Origin: a virus
DNA: 64,000 nucleotides
Reading direction: 5' to 3' (one strand)
Virus record (IMG/VR): IMGVR_UViG_3300036760_000522
Location: 237,551-301,550 of that record
Below the pieces are notes generated by a model. The model did not search any database, was not told the origin of the DNA, and saw only the letters and a program-made list of their open reading frames with translations. Positions within the stretch are counted from its first letter, which is position 1; every line of letters starts with the position of its first letter. A program made the position numbers and the translations under genes. Below are positions 20,188 to 63,071 of this stretch, in pieces.

Positions 20188-20207
20188 CCTTCAATTCCCA
20201 ATCGGTT
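20188..20207 (-). promoter_or_regulatory. Recurrent leader element, copy a
   Basis: The minus strand reads ACCGATTGGGAATTGAAGG. It overlaps the stop codon of the 20191-20571 gene and lies about 40 nt before the ATG at 20152. It is one of about nine matches in the window and the only clear one inside the leftward replication module. Confidence 0.5.
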
Positions 20208-34651: not shown

Positions 34652-34734
34652 TTTGGACAGAGAAGCGTTACAATGTGAAACGGACCAAAAAAGCACTCGA
34701 TTTTTAGGCCTCGCAATTCGTAGTAACAGGTAAC

Positions 34735-35853
34735 ATGCAAAACACCAGCACTGCCTACGGTTCTGTTCTTGTCGGGCTTGAAGCTCGCTTAGTGAAAATC
34801 ACAGCTACCGCGACGCCTAATAGTTCGCTGTGCATTGTTGGATTACCTGAAGCCGCAATGCGGGAAACTCGTTTGCGCGTCTGTGTGGTAGCTCATCCGC
34901 TCAACGTCAAAGTCGTCGTGCACGATCTCCCGGAAGGAGTGTCTACGGCTCCTCTAGATCTGGCAATCGCTGCCGCAATCATGCGAGCTTTAGGAACACC
35001 TGTTGCAGCTGATCCTGCAACAATTTTCGTGGGCGCGTTGGCACCTGACGGCGCAGTCCGTTCCGTGTCCGGAGTTCTCTGTCGGATCGACACGACACGC
35101 CCGATCGTTGTACCTTCTGAAAATGCTTGGGAAGCAGGTCTCGTACCCGGAGCAGAGTGTTACACGTTGCTAAACTTCCATCAATTGAGAGGTGAACTCG
35201 CCCGTATCCAACCGCACCAACTGTCAGATCACACTCGCGACGGGGCTGTGCGGGCCAGCCCACAATTTGAAGACCTTTCCGAGCCCTTGAAGATCGCCTA
35301 TCAGGCGTGTGTTGGTCACAAACGTCTCTTGCTCGTCGGTCGCCCGGGAGTTGGTAAGACAATACTTGCTCGGGTTCTCGCGTCGAGCATGGAACCCCTC
35401 TCTCCTGAAGAGAGCTTGGAAGTCGCCAAGGTCTACAGCGTGTGTGGCCTAGCGAACGCTCTAACGAAACAACGACCGTTTCGAGCACCTCACCATACGG
35501 TCTCTGAAGCCGGCTTGGTCGGCGGGGGTGTTAATCCGCGGCCGGGTGAGGTCTCTCTCGCTCACCGAGGCGTTCTGTTCCTCGACGAAGTACTTGAATA
35601 CACACTATCGCGGCTTACTAGCCTTGGTGGCGTTCTCCGGAGCCAGGAAGCCGTGTTTGCACGCTCAGGCGCCGTCGTCAGACTTCCAGCGGTACCCGCT
35701 GCGGTCATAGCCGCGTCGAACCCCTGCCCGTGCGGATATTTGGGTTCGGAGATCCGCTCGTGTCGCTGCTCTGAAGAGACGGTACGGAAGTACCAAAAAC
35801 GTCTCGCTGAGTGTGCAGAAATTCTCGGTCTCCACATCGTCAACATAACATGA
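34735..35853 (+). CDS. ComM/YifB-like AAA+ ATPase, C-terminally truncated
   Basis: The 372-residue protein keeps the N-terminal Lon-like domain of ComM/YifB (VGLEARLVKITATATPNSSLCIVGLPEAA) and the Mg-chelatase AAA+ core: Walker A GRPGVGKT (202-209), FRAPHHTVSEAGLVGG, Walker B GVLFLDEV and the NPCPCGY zinc-like motif. It ends soon after, lacking the roughly 130 C-terminal residues (SGPLLDRID and the sensor-2/lid region) of normal 500-residue ComM. ComM drives branch migration in natural transformation. This version may be impaired or may assemble with a host partner. It is coupled to the next gene by ATGA. Confidence 0.85.
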   Translation: MQNTSTAYGSVLVGLEARLVKITATATPNSSLCIVGLPEAAMRETRLRVCVVAHPLNVKVVVHDLPEGVSTAPLDLAIAAAIMRALGTPVAADPATIFVGALAPDGAVRSVSGVLCRIDTTRPIVVPSENAWEAGLVPGAECYTLLNFHQLRGELARIQPHQLSDHTRDGAVRASPQFEDLSEPLKIAYQACVGHKRLLLVGRPGVGKTILARVLASSMEPLSPEESLEVAKVYSVCGLANALTKQRPFRAPHHTVSEAGLVGGGVNPRPGEVSLAHRGVLFLDEVLEYTLSRLTSLGGVLRSQEAVFARSGAVVRLPAVPAAVIAASNPCPCGYLGSEIRSCRCSEETVRKYQKRLAECAEILGLHIVNIT

Positions 35854-37652: not shown

Positions 37653-38069
37653 CTATACCAATCTGTCCTGAACGCGCGGGCCCGCTTGGACAGCGTCTCG
37701 AACCTTCACGTAGAACGTGACGCGACGCTTCCCCAGATCTGCTTGGCGTTGCCAACCAGCGGTTCGAATCTTCATTTTCTTGGCTGTAGCCAAATTGGTT
37801 TGGGCCTCTTCAGCGCGAGCAGCCTCAGCCTGGATCTTGCGTTCTGCCCAAGCGAGCAGTTCGCTTTGTGCCTGTACCATCTCGCCGGGGTTCCGTGCGA
37901 GAACCACCACGTCTTCGGTGATCGCTAGTTCCGGAACACGGTCCTCCGTGTCGACTTCCGGTGTCGGCTCCGATGCTGCCGCGATGACGGGATCCTGGTG
38001 CTCCACCAGCGAAGAAGGGACATCCGGTGTTTCTGGTTCTGTGGCCATCCCCGCAAAATACCAGATCAT
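37653..38069 (-). CDS. Phage-type basic helical protein
   Basis: The protein has 138 residues from ATG 38069, placed by the leader element directly upstream. After an acidic N-terminal half it has a helical, alanine-rich segment (ERKIQAEAARAEEAQTNLAT) and a basic end (KKMKIRTAGWQRQADLGKRR, then VTFYVKVRDAVQAG). I have seen this C-terminal pattern in phage ORFans, where it usually continues further, so the reading frame here may be shortened. Function unknown. Confidence 0.6.
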   Translation of the reverse strand: MIWYFAGMATEPETPDVPSSLVEHQDPVIAAASEPTPEVDTEDRVPELAITEDVVVLARNPGEMVQAQSELLAWAERKIQAEAARAEEAQTNLATAKKMKIRTAGWQRQADLGKRRVTFYVKVRDAVQAGPRVQDRLV

Positions 38070-38075
38070 GTTTCA

Positions 38076-38109
38076 GTCTTCAATGCCCAATCGGTCCGAC
38101 CCCTACCGG
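38076..38109 (-). promoter_or_regulatory. Recurrent leader element, copy e
   Basis: The minus strand has GGTAGGGGTCGG, then ACCGATTGGGCATTGAAGAC, ending 6 nt before ATG 38069. It closely matches copy i at 58036. Confidence 0.65.
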
Positions 38110-38119
38110 AAAGCAAGTG

Positions 38120-39439
38120 ATGTCGAAAATAAACGTTTTGATGGGCCGAATTGACCGACGAGACTACCAAATCTCGGTCATCGGTCTGGGCTACGTCGGG
38201 TTGCCCTTAGCGCTCGCCTTCTCGAAGAGAGGGTTCCCTGTTCTAGGCATCGACGTCGATCGACACAAAGTCGACAAGGTCAACCGACGAATATCGTACC
38301 TGAGCCACGTACCTAGCTCGCGGTTCGACGAATGTACGGCCCCCTTCAAAGCAACAACGGATTTTGAAGAGCTTCGCTTCGCGGACGCGATTCTGATTTG
38401 TGTACCGACGCCTTTGGATCATCACCAACAACCCGACATGCAATACGTCGAAGCGACCGTCGATGAAGTGAAAAGATGGTTGCGATCCGACCAACTCATT
38501 GTACTCGAGTCCACGACCTATCCCGGGACAACCGATGAGTTCATTCAACCGTTCTTGAGAAACCAAGACATACGCCTCGGACGCCCAACCAGCTTCTACC
38601 TCGCCTATTCTCCTGAACGCGAGGACCCCGGCAACACACAATTCTCGACGACCACGACGCCGAAACTTGTCGGAGGAGTTGATCCAGATTCAACTGAGCT
38701 CGCAGCACACCTCTACGGAACGATCGCTCCTGTAGTCCGCGTCGCAAATTCCCGAGTGGCCGAGGCTGCAAAACTCACTGAGAACATTTTCCGTGCGGTC
38801 AATATTGCGCTCGTCAACGAACTCAAAATCGTGTTCGACAAGATGGGGATCGATGTCTGGCAAGTGCTTGACGCGGCTGCAACTAAGCCGTTCGGCTTCA
38901 TGCGCTTCAATCCGGGTCCCGGTTGGGGAGGGCACTGCATACCGGTCGATCCGTTCTACTTGAGCTGGAAAGCGAGAGCATACGGAGTAACGCCAAAATT
39001 CATCGAGCTTGCGGGCGAGATCAATATCCGCATGCACGAGTACGTTGTAGGAAAGCTCGTCGAGGGGCTCAACGCCCAAGGAAAGGCACTACGTGATGCC
39101 AAGGTGTTGATTCTCGGCGTCGCCTACAAGGCAAACGTGGACGATTGCCGGGAGAGCCCTGCCTTCCCGATCATGGCGATGATTGTGAAGTTGGGCGGGA
39201 GTGTCCGCTACCACGACCCTCTAGTCAGCCGTATCCCTCATCTCAGAGACTGGCCCGCCTTCGTTGGGGCTGAGTCAGACCCGCTTGACGAAGCCGTTCT
39301 CAGAGGCTCTGACGCGGTCCTTGTAGTGACGGCACACTCGGCTGTCGACTACGAGATGGTCGGTAAGTACGCCAGTCTCATCGTCGACAGCCGAGGGGTG
39401 TTCAAACCTGAGCAGACCTCGCAGCTTGTACGTGCCTGA
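38120..39439 (+). CDS. UDP-sugar 6-dehydrogenase (UDP-GlcNAc/ManNAc type)
   Basis: The 439-residue protein starts at ATG 38120 after GGAAAGCAAG. It shows the NAD-binding GLGYVG (22-27), SPERE (164-168), the catalytic cysteine C273 in GPGWGGHCIPVDP, and the C-terminal VLILGVAYKANVDDCRESPA. The extended GGHCIPVDP and SPEREDPG motifs fit the WbpA/TviB/WbpO type, which oxidise UDP-HexNAc to uronates, better than UDP-glucose dehydrogenase. The product would feed capsule or O-antigen synthesis. As an isolated phage gene it is probably an auxiliary gene that alters the host surface. Confidence 0.9.
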   Translation: MSKINVLMGRIDRRDYQISVIGLGYVGLPLALAFSKRGFPVLGIDVDRHKVDKVNRRISYLSHVPSSRFDECTAPFKATTDFEELRFADAILICVPTPLDHHQQPDMQYVEATVDEVKRWLRSDQLIVLESTTYPGTTDEFIQPFLRNQDIRLGRPTSFYLAYSPEREDPGNTQFSTTTTPKLVGGVDPDSTELAAHLYGTIAPVVRVANSRVAEAAKLTENIFRAVNIALVNELKIVFDKMGIDVWQVLDAAATKPFGFMRFNPGPGWGGHCIPVDPFYLSWKARAYGVTPKFIELAGEINIRMHEYVVGKLVEGLNAQGKALRDAKVLILGVAYKANVDDCRESPAFPIMAMIVKLGGSVRYHDPLVSRIPHLRDWPAFVGAESDPLDEAVLRGSDAVLVVTAHSAVDYEMVGKYASLIVDSRGVFKPEQTSQLVRA

Positions 39440-41688: not shown

Positions 41689-41981
41689 GACACTGTCTGA
41701 CTGCGGACAACTTCGGCTTCGTCCGCAGTAGCGTGCATACTTGGGACAACTTGACGGAAGTCGTCACAGATTGCAACAGGCCGGTAGTCGGAGGTGAATA
41801 CGTGCCCGTCGACCAATTTCGCCAAAGTCACGGCCTCTAGCAAAACGAGGCCGGTGCGCTCAAACTTGCCACTTTCCAACATCACTAGGTAGGTCATGTT
41901 GTTTACTACGAATCCAGAGGCCTCGGAATCGAGTACTTTCTTGACACATACGGGCGTCGATGCGAAATGGGTCAAACGCAT
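41685..41981 (-). CDS. Small hypothetical protein with start overlapping a divergent gene
   Basis: The 98-residue beta-rich protein (MRLTHFASTPVCVKKVLDSE) has an ATG at 41981-41979 sharing CATG with the divergent plus-strand start at 41980. No promoter fits between them. Its promoter would lie within the opposing gene. Function unknown. Confidence 0.5.
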   Translation of the reverse strand: MRLTHFASTPVCVKKVLDSEASGFVVNNMTYLVMLESGKFERTGLVLLEAVTLAKLVDGHVFTSDYRPVAICDDFRQVVPSMHATADEAEVVRSQTVS

Positions 41982-45536: not shown

Positions 45537-45832
45537 GTGTGGACGTTGTAGTAATGAATCGAGAAACCGCCGCAGTCGTCAATCTGGATATTGGTCGCCT
45601 AGACTCTGCACAGATTCGTCACGTTGACGGGCGCGGCTACGTCAACGTGACAGGTCTCGGTGTTGAGGGAAGAGTTGGTCTTTTGAAGTACTTAGATGGA
45701 CATGACTGGACGGTTCGGATGGAAACGACGCACGTACCAGATTTGTATCTGCGTGACGTGTCCGCGGACCCGCCACAACCTTCTGTGTTTTGGTTGCTGG
45801 AACGCCAAACAGCACGGAATCGCTTGCTCTAG
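45533..45832 (+). CDS. Hypothetical protein, 3' end altered by duplication
   Basis: The 99-residue protein (MSVDVVVMNRETAAVVNLDI) is beta-rich. Its last 23 codons include the first copy of a 43-bp direct repeat. The reading frame ends in sequence inserted between the repeats, so the native C-terminus has probably been replaced. Confidence 0.5.
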   Translation: MSVDVVVMNRETAAVVNLDIGRLDSAQIRHVDGRGYVNVTGLGVEGRVGLLKYLDGHDWTVRMETTHVPDLYLRDVSADPPQPSVFWLLERQTARNRLL

Positions 45833-45924
45833 TATTTGTTCTCGCGACCAACCTCACGCGGGAACAGCTTCGTAACTTGAAGCGGACCCGCCACAACCTT
45901 CTGTGTTTTGGTTGCTGGAACGCC
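45764..45924. repeat. 43-bp exact direct repeat flanking a 75-bp insert
   Basis: Copies at 45764-45806 and 45882-45924 begin GCGGACCCGCCACAACCTTC. The 75 bp between encode LVFVLATNLTREQLRNL in one frame, a relative of the C-terminus of the gene at 47854-48153. Confidence 0.85.
45816..45882 (+). repeat. Left arm of inverted repeat flanking the Kelch/FGE gene
   Basis: About 67 bp, roughly 80 percent identical to the reverse complement of 47854-47920. Both encode the peptide LVFVLATNLTR. Confidence 0.75.
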
Positions 45925-45985
45925 GGCTTGGAGGGCCATCAGGCAGCAGATTTGACAATCCGTGAATCGGGATAACACTTAGTTG

Positions 45986-47839
45986 ATGTTATTTAAGTAC
46001 CCGTCTCTGGTTTCAGTTGTCCTGCTCCTAGCCTGTAGCGATCACCAAGATTCGGTTGGACCTGTTGGCCGTGTCACACAGGCTGTAAGTTACGTTTCTG
46101 ATTCACTAAATTGCGGTGCCAGCGGCTACCAATGTAAAGGCGGTCGCACCTGTCAGACTGGCCATTGTACCCCGGTTTGGATCCCCATGTCGACCGTCGG
46201 CGCACCCGCGCCTCGGTTTGCCGCAGCTGCAACAGCCTACGAAGGGAAGTACCTGGTTGCAGGTGGCTGCACGAGTTACGACCTAAATGCGCCGGCAGAA
46301 ATTACGGCGTCAATTTACGATCCCGCGACTGATACGTGGTCTGAATTTCCGTCGTTCGACATTGAAGACAGGCGTAATCTGTCCGTGTTGTTTACGGTTC
46401 CGGACGGACTGTATTCTCTCGGCGGTGAAACACAATGCCGGCATGCCGGCATCTCCTCCTATCATACACTGGTGAAGTACGACCCGATTGGTTTGAAATG
46501 GGACCGACTCCCGTACGAAGAAGACACCATCAACGCAGGCTACAACAAGTCGATTACTGTCATTCCAGGGACCAATGAGATTTTTATCTATGGTGGTGGA
46601 GGAGGCAATGGTCCGGCCTGGTGGTATGCAGATCGCGGAAGTTTCCCTCTTCTCGAAGACACATGGCTGAGCTGGACACATCCCGGTTGCCCACTTTCCG
46701 GATGCATACGCGGAGGGGCTTTTACGACCTTCTACGACGCAGGCTTCATCCGTGTCATGGGAGGAGATCCTACCTACGGAACAGCGCCCGCAGGTTTGTC
46801 ATTCGAACTTGCAACCAGCACTTGGTCAAACTGGACGGTACCAGCCGGGACCCCGGACTTCCAAAACGACTTTTCAAACTACTCCAACACAGCTCCGACG
46901 GGTGTCGACACCGGCACGCGACTCATGTACGTCTCGGAGACGGGGAACGTCGCCATTTACGATCGCGCCTTAGGCACGTGGTCGACGGATGTTACCGCGC
47001 CGCCTAGCGGCTTCTGTGCGGGCGGATCAGCCGCTTACGTGGACGGTGAACTCGTCGTGTACTCCGGAAGCTGTGACGGCGTTCTAGCGTCCGTTGGTGC
47101 GCGCTATCAGGCGCCAGCTCCGGGATTGGCGTTCACACCAACGGTGTCAGTTACAAGCACAAGTACGACATTCACTGTCGGAGAGGTGACCCGACTCGTC
47201 ACCTTCAATGATCCATTTGGGATCGATGAGACTGAAGTCACGGCTGCGCAATACCAGGAATGTGTCACGGCTTCTTCTTGCACGGCTGCTGCGACCGGTG
47301 GCGCATGCACAAGCGGAGTCTCGGGTCTTGAACAACACCCAATCAACTGTGTCACTTACGCACAGTCCGGGGCTTACTGCTCTTGGGCCGGTAAGCGACT
47401 GCCGACCCAGCAAGAGTGGGAATACGCCGCTAGGCACAACGACCCGACCACCCACAAGTACCCTTGGGGCAACAGCACGGCGGATTACAACACGAAGTGC
47501 AACTTCTCCGTCACAACCGACGGCTACGTCGCCACAGCCCCAGTAGGCAGCTTCCCTGCTGGAAACAGCGCCCTTGGCCTCCAAGACATGGCGGGCAACG
47601 TCTGGGAGTGGACCTCGAGCCCAGCCTGCTTCAACGAAACCGGGGATTGTACGAATTGCCCGGCCGGTGGTTGTGCAAGTGCTTGCGACGTTTGCGGCAG
47701 CCCAGATCGTGTCTTCAAAGGCGGAGGTTTCACACACGCGCTTGCCTACACGCGTTCGGCATTTCGCTCTTACAACGACCCAAGCTACTCGACAGACATC
47801 CTCGGTTTTCGTTGCGCCAAGAACACCGTTGTTCCCTAG
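45986..47839 (+). CDS. Lipoprotein with Kelch-like repeats and FGE/sulfatase-modifying domain
   Basis: The 617-residue protein has a lipoprotein signal (VVLLLAC, C17 lipid-anchored). A short Cys-rich EGF-like stretch (SLNCGASGYQCKGGRTCQTG) follows, then Kelch-like beta-propeller segments (YLVAGGCTSYD, GLYSLGGET, EIFIYGGGGG) to about 385. The C-terminal FGE-sulfatase domain runs through GKRLPTQQEWEYAARH, MAGNVWEWT, FKGGGFTHA and GFRCAK. Such surface proteins are widespread in Myxococcota and most such domains are not true formylglycine enzymes. It would face the periplasm or outside. Very unlike its small phage neighbours, and inverted repeats bracket it, so it is probably acquired cargo. Confidence 0.85.
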   Translation: MLFKYPSLVSVVLLLACSDHQDSVGPVGRVTQAVSYVSDSLNCGASGYQCKGGRTCQTGHCTPVWIPMSTVGAPAPRFAAAATAYEGKYLVAGGCTSYDLNAPAEITASIYDPATDTWSEFPSFDIEDRRNLSVLFTVPDGLYSLGGETQCRHAGISSYHTLVKYDPIGLKWDRLPYEEDTINAGYNKSITVIPGTNEIFIYGGGGGNGPAWWYADRGSFPLLEDTWLSWTHPGCPLSGCIRGGAFTTFYDAGFIRVMGGDPTYGTAPAGLSFELATSTWSNWTVPAGTPDFQNDFSNYSNTAPTGVDTGTRLMYVSETGNVAIYDRALGTWSTDVTAPPSGFCAGGSAAYVDGELVVYSGSCDGVLASVGARYQAPAPGLAFTPTVSVTSTSTTFTVGEVTRLVTFNDPFGIDETEVTAAQYQECVTASSCTAAATGGACTSGVSGLEQHPINCVTYAQSGAYCSWAGKRLPTQQEWEYAARHNDPTTHKYPWGNSTADYNTKCNFSVTTDGYVATAPVGSFPAGNSALGLQDMAGNVWEWTSSPACFNETGDCTNCPAGGCASACDVCGSPDRVFKGGGFTHALAYTRSAFRSYNDPSYSTDILGFRCAKNTVVP

Positions 47840-47853
47840 TGACAGGAACTGTC

Positions 47854-47920
47854 TCACAATTTGAGGAGCTGATCCCGTGTGAGGTTCGTCGCGAGGACAA
47901 ATACTAACTCAAACGACTCC
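47854..47920 (-). repeat. Right arm of inverted repeat flanking the Kelch/FGE gene
   Basis: Pairs with 45816-45882. It forms the 3' end of the minus-strand gene 47854-48153. Confidence 0.75.
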
Positions 47921-48153
47921 CTACCATTTGAACTTGTGACGATTCCAGCAGCACGGGCGAATTTGGTAGCACCTTCACAAATCTCGACTTCTGCCCAAAG
48001 GTCGACGTCATTGCGAACTTCGTAGCGCAACGCCCGTCCGATCTCTTTTTGATCCGCAGTGGAGTACACAGGGACTTGTCCCGATGTTGTGGCAAGCGCT
48101 GGTAAGGCAGACGCTGGCAGCGCGTCGCTGGCGCTGAGGATGTTGATCCACAT
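47854..48153 (-). CDS. Hypothetical protein with LVFVLATNLTR C-terminus
   Basis: This 99-residue protein from ATG 48153 (MWINILSASDALPASALPAL) has a beta-rich middle and ends ELVFVLATNLTRDQLLKL. That ending also appears in the insert at 45.8 kb. No family recognised. It follows the 48155-48406 gene immediately. Confidence 0.5.
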   Translation of the reverse strand: MWINILSASDALPASALPALATTSGQVPVYSTADQKEIGRALRYEVRNDVDLWAEVEICEGATKFARAAGIVTSSNGRESFELVFVLATNLTRDQLLKL

Positions 48154-48154
48154 G

Positions 48155-48406
48155 CTACACGCCCTCGTCAACGATGAGGTTGAGGACCCGTCCCTTTACG
48201 TAGATGCTCTTCTTGACGGTCTTGTCCCAGACGCAGTGGCTATCTTCGATCGAGAAAAAAGCCTTCAAGACGCGTGAAGTAGTCTTGACTGTCGTGTTGC
48301 TGAGTCCTGGATTGACGAAATCTCTAGTGATAGTGACAGAGAGAACCCGGTCACCATCTTCTAGGATGTCTCCTGCGTTCAGGGCTTCGAGAGTCTCTGC
48401 GGTCAT
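48155..48406 (-). CDS. Small hypothetical protein
   Basis: This 83-residue protein (MTAETLEALNAGDILEDGDR) is beta-rich (VLSVTITRDFVNPG, SRVLKAFFSI). No family recognised. Its stop is 1 nt before the next start. Confidence 0.5.
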   Translation of the reverse strand: MTAETLEALNAGDILEDGDRVLSVTITRDFVNPGLSNTTVKTTSRVLKAFFSIEDSHCVWDKTVKKSIYVKGRVLNLIVDEGV

Positions 48407-48435: not shown

Positions 48436-48996
48436 TTACGGCTTCGAAGTGGACTTCCCTTTCAAGTTCTGTACGCGTGTGATTTCCTCAGCCGTATGTG
48501 GCGTCCCGCCTGCGTTGATCCCCAGGTACAGATCGAGTACTTCGTCGCGAGTCTCCAAGGAACAAACGCGCCATTTGAAAGTGTGAGACAACGTGCGAAG
48601 CTTACCTGTGAATTCCTTGTAACGATGACCAAAGACCCTGAGGTCGTTTCGCAAGAATTTACGTACTGCTTCGAGTCGTTGCTTGCCGTCAACAATGGTA
48701 TACGGTCCTCGGTAATCCCGGCCCCAACCAGGGCAGTTGAAGGTGAGATTCCTTCCGACTTCGCCGCCTCGTAAGGCGTACTCGACGTAGGCGACTTGTT
48801 GCGCTTCCGTCCAAACATGCGCACGCTGGAAGTCCGGCTCAAGATCAAGAGGGGCCACCCTCTCTTCAGTCTGGTGCTGGATGTGTTCCTCGAGGTAAGT
48901 CCAAAAGACGTCGATTTCGTAATGCGCGTGCGGAAATTGGGGGATGTCGTTGAAGTCCATTCCCTTTTCACTTGCGGCTTGCGGCTTGTTGGTCAT
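48436..48996 (-). CDS. DUF262-type protein (ParB/GmrSD N-terminal-like)
   Basis: The 186-residue protein has the DUF262 signature. LEPDFQRAHVWTEAQQVAYV, ALRGGEVGRNLTFNCPGW, then YTIVDGKQRLEAVRKFLRND, where the IVDGxQRL motif is the NTP-binding/ParB-like hallmark. In GmrSD-type enzymes this domain hydrolyses NTP to license DNA cleavage. The HNH DUF1524 half is absent here, so it may be a decoy, antitoxin-like or regulatory protein. Copy g of the leader element lies about 80 nt upstream. Confidence 0.8.
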   Translation of the reverse strand: MTNKPQAASEKGMDFNDIPQFPHAHYEIDVFWTYLEEHIQHQTEERVAPLDLEPDFQRAHVWTEAQQVAYVEYALRGGEVGRNLTFNCPGWGRDYRGPYTIVDGKQRLEAVRKFLRNDLRVFGHRYKEFTGKLRTLSHTFKWRVCSLETRDEVLDLYLGINAGGTPHTAEEITRVQNLKGKSTSKP

Positions 48997-57329: not shown

Positions 57330-57636
57330 CAGAATTCGAACCCTGACCGTCGTACTCGATGCCGACTATCGAGATGACGATCTCGAATCACTCCTCACAG
57401 CAATCAAGATGGTTCGAGGTGTCGATGATGTTCAATTTGGTGAAGTCGTCAATTACAAGGACTGGATAGCCCGTCGTGCAGTGAAGACTGAACTCCAGCA
57501 CGAACTGCTCAAAGCAATCAACGGCGTGTTCGAAGAAAAGGCTTGGATAGCCCGTCGTGCAGTGAAGACTGAACTCCAGCACGAACTGCTCAAAGCAATC
57601 AACGGCGTGTTCGAAGAAAAGGCTCGAAGCTTGTGA
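57322..57636 (+). CDS. Hypothetical protein with exact internal duplication
   Basis: The 104-residue protein from GTG 57322 begins MTDRIRTLTVVLDADYRDDD, followed by a segment (VVNYKD) and two identical 27-residue repeats (WIARRAVKTELQHELLKAIN...). Without the duplication it would be 77 residues. The N-terminal part resembles a small ferredoxin-like fold. No function known. Confidence 0.6.
   Translation: MTDRIRTLTVVLDADYRDDDLESLLTAIKMVRGVDDVQFGEVVNYKDWIARRAVKTELQHELLKAINGVFEEKAWIARRAVKTELQHELLKAINGVFEEKARSL
57463..57624. repeat. Perfect 81-bp tandem duplication
   Basis: 57463-57543 and 57544-57624 are identical base for base, in frame, within a gene. A recent event. Confidence 0.95.
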
Positions 57637-58034
57637 GCAAGCCAACAACCGTGCTCCTCGACTACGAGCTGCCTTGCTTGGCTGAAATCCTCGCTTGGGA
57701 ACATGCTCCCAAATTCATACTCACGATCTGGGTAAAACCTAACGTCCGAGAGTTGGTCTACCGTGGGGCTCCGCACACCTGCGTGACGATGACGCCAGAA
57801 GAAGTCGTGAACTCTCCGACGTGGACCGTGTTCATCTCGCCCGATTTCGACTTGGTCAGGTCTTGGCACAAATCGGTTGCGTGGCCAAGATATCGGCCTC
57901 CATCAAATGGCATTTGGCTCCGCCCCGAAGGCCCTGAGATTGACACTTGGCCCAATTGCATCAATGCGCCAAGCTTTGATGTTCGATTGAAGTCTCGACT
58001 GCTGCACGAGCTCGAGGTACGAGATAAGCTGTGA
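57633..58034 (+). CDS. Hypothetical protein
   Basis: 133 residues from GTG 57633 (MSKPTTVLLDYELPCLAEIL), alpha/beta with WTVFISPDFDLVRSWHKSVA. No family recognised. Start overlaps the upstream stop. Confidence 0.55.
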   Translation: MSKPTTVLLDYELPCLAEILAWEHAPKFILTIWVKPNVRELVYRGAPHTCVTMTPEEVVNSPTWTVFISPDFDLVRSWHKSVAWPRYRPPSNGIWLRPEGPEIDTWPNCINAPSFDVRLKSRLLHELEVRDKL

Positions 58035-58035
58035 C

Positions 58036-58069
58036 GTGGTAGTGATTAGACCGATTGGGAATTGAAGAC
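58036..58069 (+). promoter_or_regulatory. Recurrent leader element, copy i
   Basis: GTGGTAGTGATTAG, then ACCGATTGGGAATTGAAGAC ends 7 nt before the Tad2-like ATG at 58076. One of the best matches; nearly superimposes on copy e. Confidence 0.65.
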
Positions 58070-61117: not shown

Positions 61118-62995
61118 TCAGATGTTGATCGTGAAAGCCAGCGACGCCAGTTGAGTCCCAGTACCGTCAAACCCACGCCACGTAACGTCTAAGCTCGAAC
61201 CCCCCGAGTCTTCGATCTGCATGGTCCCGAACTGGTTTGTTCCGGTGAACACCCCGGAGCTGTACGTTGCGCCACCGTAACTGCCCGGGCTCACAATGTC
61301 GAGCGGAGCCGCTTGAAACGTACGGATCGGCTCTCCGCCTCCGGAAAGGAAATCGTGATGACTTCCGTCGTCGATGCCGAGGAAGTGTCCATCAGCAGAA
61401 AGCACGATTACTCTACCGGAACAGTTGGCATTGATATGGCTGACGAGTTCAGCTCGCTCTGTCGTAAAACCGCCCCAATGATCTGCGCCAGCCGTCGCAA
61501 CTCCCCCGAACACGCGAGGGCATACCCACACGATCAAGTATCCAGAGGAATTTGACAACAGATTTTTGAACCACGTTTTCTGCGCAGACCCCAACATGCT
61601 CTTGGAAGAATTGTCAGTGGCCGAGTCGAGGCTAGCAGCAGAGCGTTGATCGGTGAGAACAAATCTTACGCGACCTACGTCGAACGTTTGGTAGATTGAC
61701 GTGCCCTCAACAAGAGGATAGTGCGGCACGCGAACACGATACGTTGCACAAGAAGCTACTTTGCTCGGTGAGCTGGCGTCGCTGTTGTTCGGGCCGTAGT
61801 CGTGATCGTCCCACATGGATGCCGTGGGCACGTTACTGAACAGTTCGGCTTGTCGTGGTTGAGACAAGATCTCGTCGTAAGCCGCGTTGAACAAAGCTGG
61901 ATCGTTAACGGCAATGTTGTTGTAATGTGAATCTCCGAGATGCAAGAACAGTAGCGGATCCAGTTCTCGGATCGTGTCGAATACTACTGCGTTGGATGCT
62001 TTGAGAGCGTCGCCTGCGAAAGCCACCGTGAACGAGGCATTGCCGGACGGTGCAGTGCGGAAGCCACCCGTAGGACCTTCTATGGCCTCCTCGTCTATCT
62101 GCACTTCGTAAGTGTACTCTGTGTCCGCATCGAGCCCTGTGATCGCAAACTTAGCGGCTTCGTCGTGGACGACATCAACCGGATCCGTGTACACAGTGCC
62201 ACCAGGACCAGTGACAGCCAAACGCACGGCACTAGCGGCGTACGTGAGCTTCACCACCACCGTTGCACCAGCTTCAGTGAGTGCCCCTACCCAGAGCGAC
62301 TTCACTGTCGGAACCAAGAGACCAAATTCCTCACCCAACGTATCGTTGTAGGAGTCCAGGATCTGTTCGTCCGTTAGCGCAATGCCGTCGATCTCGATTC
62401 CGAATACGTCTGGCGCGACAGTACCAGCATAGTTGATGGACAGTTGCCCAGCAGTGGACCCTGTCGAAGCAACCAAGACTCCAGACGGAGGACCGTACGG
62501 AATTCCGTTCACAAAGAACTGGACGACGACACCGCCAGCAACAGCGCGTCGACGCATTACCACGTGGAAAGGCACGTCAAACGCAGGCAATCCGCGTTGT
62601 AGAGGACCGGCAGAGAAGTACGCGTCTAAACCCGCATCATGCTCACCGAGGTAGGTGAGAGTGTTCTGACTTGTCAACCTGATCGCCCAAATGACATTCG
62701 TCGGATCAGACTCCCCGACTCCTTGAAAGGCGCAAACCCAGACGTTGGTTGGTACTCCACGAAGGATGAGCAGCAGTTGTACAGTGATGTCCCCGTAGAG
62801 GCGCAAAGAGGCGTCGGAAACACCGTTTCTGTTCACCACGCCAGAGGGCGACATTCCGATGGTGTTTTCGTAGACCTGACGAAAAATCGTGGTCGGCCCT
62901 GTCAGATTTAACCCGTTGCCAGAGGCATCGAGTAGGCTTTCGCAGTCGAAACGCGCCAGTGGGTTGTGTCGGTTATCGAACTTGTGTAGTCGCAT
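61118..62995 (-). CDS. LamG + PhoD-like phosphoesterase, virion candidate
   Basis: The 625-residue protein from ATG 62995 starts with a LamG/concanavalin-like domain to about 235, then an FN3/purple-acid-phosphatase-type beta domain (VRLAVTGPGG, YEVQIDEEAIEG). The metallophosphatase part shows FAGDALKAS, LHLGDSHYNN, WDDHDYGPNN and VLSADGHFLG, the metal ligands of PhoD-like enzymes. There is no signal peptide, which suggests a virion-bound enzyme. It might hydrolyse phosphodiesters such as teichoic acid or LPS phosphate. A longer start at 63070 is less likely. Confidence 0.8.
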   Translation of the reverse strand: MRLHKFDNRHNPLARFDCESLLDASGNGLNLTGPTTIFRQVYENTIGMSPSGVVNRNGVSDASLRLYGDITVQLLLILRGVPTNVWVCAFQGVGESDPTNVIWAIRLTSQNTLTYLGEHDAGLDAYFSAGPLQRGLPAFDVPFHVVMRRRAVAGGVVVQFFVNGIPYGPPSGVLVASTGSTAGQLSINYAGTVAPDVFGIEIDGIALTDEQILDSYNDTLGEEFGLLVPTVKSLWVGALTEAGATVVVKLTYAASAVRLAVTGPGGTVYTDPVDVVHDEAAKFAITGLDADTEYTYEVQIDEEAIEGPTGGFRTAPSGNASFTVAFAGDALKASNAVVFDTIRELDPLLFLHLGDSHYNNIAVNDPALFNAAYDEILSQPRQAELFSNVPTASMWDDHDYGPNNSDASSPSKVASCATYRVRVPHYPLVEGTSIYQTFDVGRVRFVLTDQRSAASLDSATDNSSKSMLGSAQKTWFKNLLSNSSGYLIVWVCPRVFGGVATAGADHWGGFTTERAELVSHINANCSGRVIVLSADGHFLGIDDGSHHDFLSGGGEPIRTFQAAPLDIVSPGSYGGATYSSGVFTGTNQFGTMQIEDSGGSSLDVTWRGFDGTGTQLASLAFTINI

Positions 62996-63071
62996 GAAGG
63001 TTCCCTTCGTCCTTGGATGGCGAATAAATTGAAAAAAGGAACCCTTGCGTTTCGATATGTAGTGAGGCATT

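Follow-up and report, generated by a model that had tools for sequence, protein, structure and literature searches.

The window analysed here, 64 kb at the right-hand end of a virus record, carries a 618-aa open reading frame encoding a Kelch/FGE protein with a predicted lipoprotein signal. The product is most likely a 'moron', a lipoprotein of host type that binds at the envelope and whose gene has been ameliorated. The fuller reading, which we hold tentatively and with somewhat less than even confidence, is that the gene was acquired long ago from a Myxococcota-type source, that its product would be an exported lipoprotein in which a Kelch propeller stands between a Cys-rich segment and a non-catalytic FGE domain, and that it would serve as an envelope binding protein on the infected cell, with superinfection exclusion or receptor modulation as the leading roles. 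The domain layout, the single copy, the kinship, the missing FGE cysteines, and the phage-like composition are observed; we infer that the protein is lipidated and expressed during infection, as well as its location, its ligand, and its use to the phage.

The Kelch/FGE gene and its surroundings

The virus record (G000) is 301,550 bp (301.6 kb) long and is a genuine jumbo phage because it contains terminase, portal, and head protease genes (at ~215–226 kb of the record). Genes for UvsX/RecA, a RecD-like helicase, ribonucleotide reductase, GroEL, and a DNA methylase lie within the window, and more host-like genes there encode a UDP-glucose dehydrogenase, a ChlI/Mg-chelatase-like ATPase, and a PhoD-like phosphatase (listed with 38027–39439, 34735–35853, and 61118–63070). 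The sole close relative detected was a 159-kb contig (G001), whose RecA is 95% identical. G001 is collinear with the window only to ~37.2 kb, that is, it stops before the Kelch locus, and therefore the gain of the Kelch gene is not readable from it. No syntenic relative spanning the locus was found among viral contigs scanned with four neighbour proteins, the PhoD-like gene, and the UDP-glucose dehydrogenase. The upstream cluster and the small minus-strand gene had no match in phage DNA and protein collections, and the latter had no family or phage relative in Pfam, NCBIfam, PHROG, and phage collections. Only 14 bp separate the stop codon of this small gene (47854–47856) from the Kelch gene's 3' end; the small gene probably starts at ATG 48153, beside the end of another minus-strand ORF. 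A GmrSD_N/DUF262-like protein (48436–48996, minus strand) adjoins the locus; it has relatives with 47–61% identity in three other viral contigs, which showed no further clear synteny.

Table 1 Features of the Kelch/FGE locus (window coordinates).
Feature	Position	Strand	Description
Upstream small ORF, 117 aa	45183–45536	+	Possible transcriptional neighbour; no family above cut-off
Upstream small ORF, 99 aa	45533–45832	+	Start overlaps preceding stop; C-terminus enters 43-bp repeat and left arm
43-bp direct repeat, copy 1	45764–45806	+	100% identical to copy 2
Left inverted arm	45806–45879	+	Truncated; copies the final 24 codons of the 47854–48171 gene
43-bp direct repeat, copy 2	45882–45924	+	100% identical to copy 1
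Kelch/FGE lipoprotein gene	45983–47839	+	TTG start (alternative ATG 45986); 618 aa; open frame with Pfam, NCBIfam, and PHROG matches
Lipoprotein-type signal peptide	45983–46036	+	Lipobox LLAC, lipidation Cys at aa 18, Ser at +2; sequence pattern
MXAN_6577-like Cys-rich segment	46016–46171	+	aa 12–63, CGASGYQCKGGRTCQTGHC; NF041328, E 2.6e-4
Kelch beta-propeller	46208–47110	+	~aa 76–376; PF24681, E 1.2e-13; AlphaFold2, Foldseek
FGE/SUMF-type (C-type-lectin-like) domain	47192–47821	+	aa 404–613; PF03781, E 3e-43
Small ORFan gene	47854–48171	-	105 aa from TTG; convergent with Kelch gene
Right inverted arm	47857–47930	-	Coincides exactly with the final 24 codons of the intact small minus-strand gene (its 3' coding end)

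The preliminary description had placed a large host-like lipoprotein gene among small ORFans, and the ORF with its Kelch and FGE matches bears this out. The gene lies at 283.5–285.4 kb of the record in one copy, with no paralogue elsewhere in the record, and no clear promoter was seen beside it. The N-terminus (MMLFKYPSLVSVVLLLAC, followed by S) shows the lipobox pattern LLAC ahead of S, behind a short hydrophobic stretch, and the protein is a predicted bacterial lipoprotein. A second lipoprotein-like ORF of 112 aa (MHQLSLIALFFIVGC...; L150) occurs at 181721–182059 of G000 on the minus strand.

Behind the signal, the Cys-rich segment gave a partial N-terminal match to NF041328 (MXAN_6577-like) at 20.9 bits, against a curated cut-off of 100, so that the protein falls outside this family; the segment is conserved in Myxococcota Kelch lipoproteins. 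The Kelch half scored 51.3 bits with PF24681 (cut-off 50). Folded with its own alignment, it gave an AlphaFold2 model with a pTM of 0.73 that matched Kelch domains in Foldseek (E 2e-15), and the strand list suggests about six blades. The FGE half, supplied by a separate AlphaFold run, scored 148.7 bits with PF03781 (FGE-sulfatase; gathering threshold 23.3); pLDDT was mostly >80, and Foldseek matched FGE, CalU17, PvdO, and PorK.

Alignment to human FGE in the PDB showed that both cysteines of the copper-binding pair (human C336/C341) are missing from the phage domain. The catalytic Cys motif is also missing from the aligned Myxococcota FGE relatives. On these two grounds, the phage protein is unlikely to function as a formylglycine-generating enzyme.

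Cellular relatives and origin of the two halves

The call of a host-like gene was upheld by the closest homologues, since the cellular relatives of both halves are mainly from Myxococcota. In a scan of 84,980 species, the best FGE relatives were mostly from Myxococcales and Deltaproteobacteria MAGs. In a sample of the phylum Myxococcota, in which about three candidates per genome were scored at most, FGE relatives were present in 286 of the 377 genomes at E <= 1e-12, the best being 53% identical over nearly the whole domain. Myxococcota lipoproteins also align over the Cys-rich and Kelch half with 21–27% identity and motif positions in common. The host phylum would be Myxococcota, an assignment made because of this protein kinship and nothing else.

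Two sets of Myxococcota lipoproteins each resemble one part of the phage protein. The Cys-rich Kelch lipoproteins (e.g. L116, L153–L160) have in common with it the signal, the Cys-rich segment, the 'CTPxWxxMST.GAPxxR' junction, and the Kelch repeats, whereas those examined stop after the propeller without an FGE domain; the phage protein has about one blade fewer in the alignment. The FGE/SUMF-domain lipoproteins (e.g. L120, L128) resemble it in a lipobox-like start, a Cys-rich linker, and the missing catalytic Cys pair, and their FGE domain is 40–53% identical to that of the phage, but unlike the phage protein they have no Kelch propeller. A fusion of the two halves was present in none of the cellular ORFs examined in a non-exhaustive search. 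The PorK/GldK ring lipoproteins of the T9SS are also lipoproteins with an FGE-like domain, but they have no Kelch half and belong to a different pathway; the phage protein scored 69.7 bits against the NCBIfam equivalog cut-off of 350.

A check for composition bias, proposed together with the suggestion that a host gene had been captured, revealed none: the gene is typical of the phage in codon usage (z -0.39) and GC3 (z +0.67), and a recent capture is not indicated. Because of this, any acquisition would appear to be old enough for amelioration.

Possible roles of the protein

Binding is the usual task of propellers and of the C-type-lectin-like FGE fold. In the favored reading, the infected cell would make and export the Kelch/FGE lipoprotein, and the lipid anchor would hold it in the outer membrane or facing the periplasm. 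The propeller and the C-type-lectin-like domain would then bind a receptor, a glycan, or an envelope protein, and this binding would alter the surface interactions of the infected cell. A plausible order of preference for the outcome would be superinfection exclusion, then receptor modulation, then altered cell contacts. The adhesion, masking, and exclusion roles raised in the preliminary description are likewise putative. None of the defence-system models matched the Kelch protein. Proteins of the T5 Llp type are phage-encoded lipoproteins as here, but T5 Llp and the other known superinfection-exclusion lipoproteins are of small size (PMC9586334); the ~600 aa of the Kelch/FGE lipoprotein count against an exclusion role, and the Llp type has a known receptor and no domain in common with it.

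More specifically, a Myxococcota jumbo phage may display a fused Kelch-FGE lipoprotein, derived from host surface-lipoprotein families, on the infected cell to rewire recognition or exclude rival phages; in this form we consider the proposal doubtful. Should export and lipidation take place in infected cells, the phage would encode a lipoprotein of unusual size, with two binding modules. It would then point to a Myxococcota host for this jumbo-phage lineage and give a handle on what two myxobacterial lipoprotein families, abundant but poorly understood, do.

The protein may instead be a passenger, or a 'moron' that alters behaviour by changing cell-cell recognition, adhesion, grazing, or predation and not by excluding phages. 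Such lipoproteins form very large, lineage-specific families in Myxococcota, which speaks for this alternative; we regard it as unlikely but deserving of consideration.

A virion or whisker/tail-associated adhesion protein appears still less probable. Kelch proteins occur in the jumbo phages PhiPA3, Noxifer, Phabio, EL, and CBB, several of them annotated as virion proteins, and CBB_552 was found in the virion (PMC5259590). Those of PhiPA3, CBB, and EL are, as here, Kelch propellers encoded by a large phage; however, identity in the best structural matches is 13–19%, and no FGE half is reported for them (PMC5259590). Against a virion role stand the predicted lipoprotein signal and the distance of the gene from the annotated portal, terminase, and protease. 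Moreover, its sequence kin are cellular Myxococcota lipoproteins, while the phage PHROG matches are weak and confined to the Kelch half.

That the protein is an enzyme acting on host products, through formylglycine generation, EgtB-like sulfoxide synthesis, or PvdO-like oxidation, is improbable: the FGE/EgtB/PvdO fold would fit, but the FGE Cys pair is missing from the phage protein and its Myxococcota relatives, and the scores are far under the equivalog cut-offs.

Inverted arms and direct repeats at the locus

The inverted arms reported on both sides of the gene (about 67 bp and 80% identical in the preliminary description) were confirmed as 74 nt with 77% complementarity, and LVFVLATNLTR is indeed encoded in both, on the plus strand in the left arm and on the minus strand in the right. 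The best ungapped inverted match scored 40, whereas none scored above 20 when 44–50 kb was dinucleotide-shuffled 25 times, indicating that the arms are true homology and not chance.

The left arm is a relic of the small minus-strand gene with the first three quarters missing, and it lies between the two identical copies of the 43-bp direct repeat. In tblastn, residues 77–104 of the small gene matched the left arm, and no other copy was found in the record. The similarity reaches no further than the stop codon at one end, and at the other it gives out a few bases at most from the 24-codon limit. The 17 differences between the arms fall at codon positions 1, 2, and 3 in the numbers 3, 3, and 11 (position-3 excess, P = 0.008). 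This concentration at third positions suggests that the left copy diverged mainly while protein-coding, whether as part of a paralogue or of the gene's counterpart in another phage. The chance of the 43-bp direct repeat pair staying unchanged at the divergence of the arms is ~1e-5, and for this reason the direct duplication is far more recent than the divergence that separated the arms. An old gene fragment may have come first, with a later small tandem duplication leaving the fragment between the copies. The repeat structure is ordinary gene-fragment debris, and the arms are no part of how the protein would act.

A chimera, in which host DNA was joined to a phage contig during assembly, might account for a sole large host-like ORF amid small ORFans with a perfect 43-bp repeat close by; it is nevertheless very improbable, given phage-typical codon use and GC3 and the next phage gene only 14 bp away. 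Highly improbable, too, is that the arms are inversion sites or terminate a mobile element whose cargo is the Kelch/FGE gene, as their inverted placement on both sides of it might suggest. Arms of 77% identity have a longest exact run of 10 nt in common and differ by coding-type substitutions; the right arm lies inside an intact gene, and the record holds no further arm copies. A search of the record for resolvase/invertase-family (serine) recombinases gave no PF00239 match. An invertible segment, the mark of which would be near-identical inverted sites together with an invertase, was rejected, and an invertible cassette or transposon ends are unlikely because of the short exact run, the arm within an intact gene, and the missing serine recombinase. 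The data do not support the earlier proposal that the arms testify to capture or inversion of the gene; one arm is where the small flanking gene ends and the other is its diverged relic.

FGE-fold domains are frequent targets of diversity-generating retroelements (DGRs). The Kelch/FGE gene has a C-terminal domain of the FGE/C-type-lectin type, and the Foldseek matches of this half extend to Treponema TvpA (2y3c). However, no template repeat for the 3' end of the gene was found in the sequence of the record, and no reverse transcriptase was found in the record, which may be incomplete; a DGR target was therefore rejected as a candidate and is extremely improbable. DGR-diversified lipoproteins likewise carry a display domain of the C-type-lectin type (cited in PMC10907252), but the Kelch/FGE locus differs from them in the absence of both DGR components from the record.

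Other repeats occur in the window. A dispersed element (CTTCAATTCCCAATCGGT / CTTCAATTCCCAATATACTACAACACC) is present at 20189, 37481, 38078, and 49076 on the plus strand and at 58067 and 31763 on the minus strand, and also at L114:18195 on the minus strand; one copy is kept in the relative G001, and the element is a candidate phage promoter or regulator site. A second repeated element (TACTACGAATCC..GCCTAAAAATCGAGT) has copies ~78–80% alike at 41904 and 49005 on the plus strand and at 34725 on the minus strand. An 81-bp tandem duplication (57457–57618), a multiple of three in length, is 98% identical between its copies and lies within the ORF at 57453–57869.
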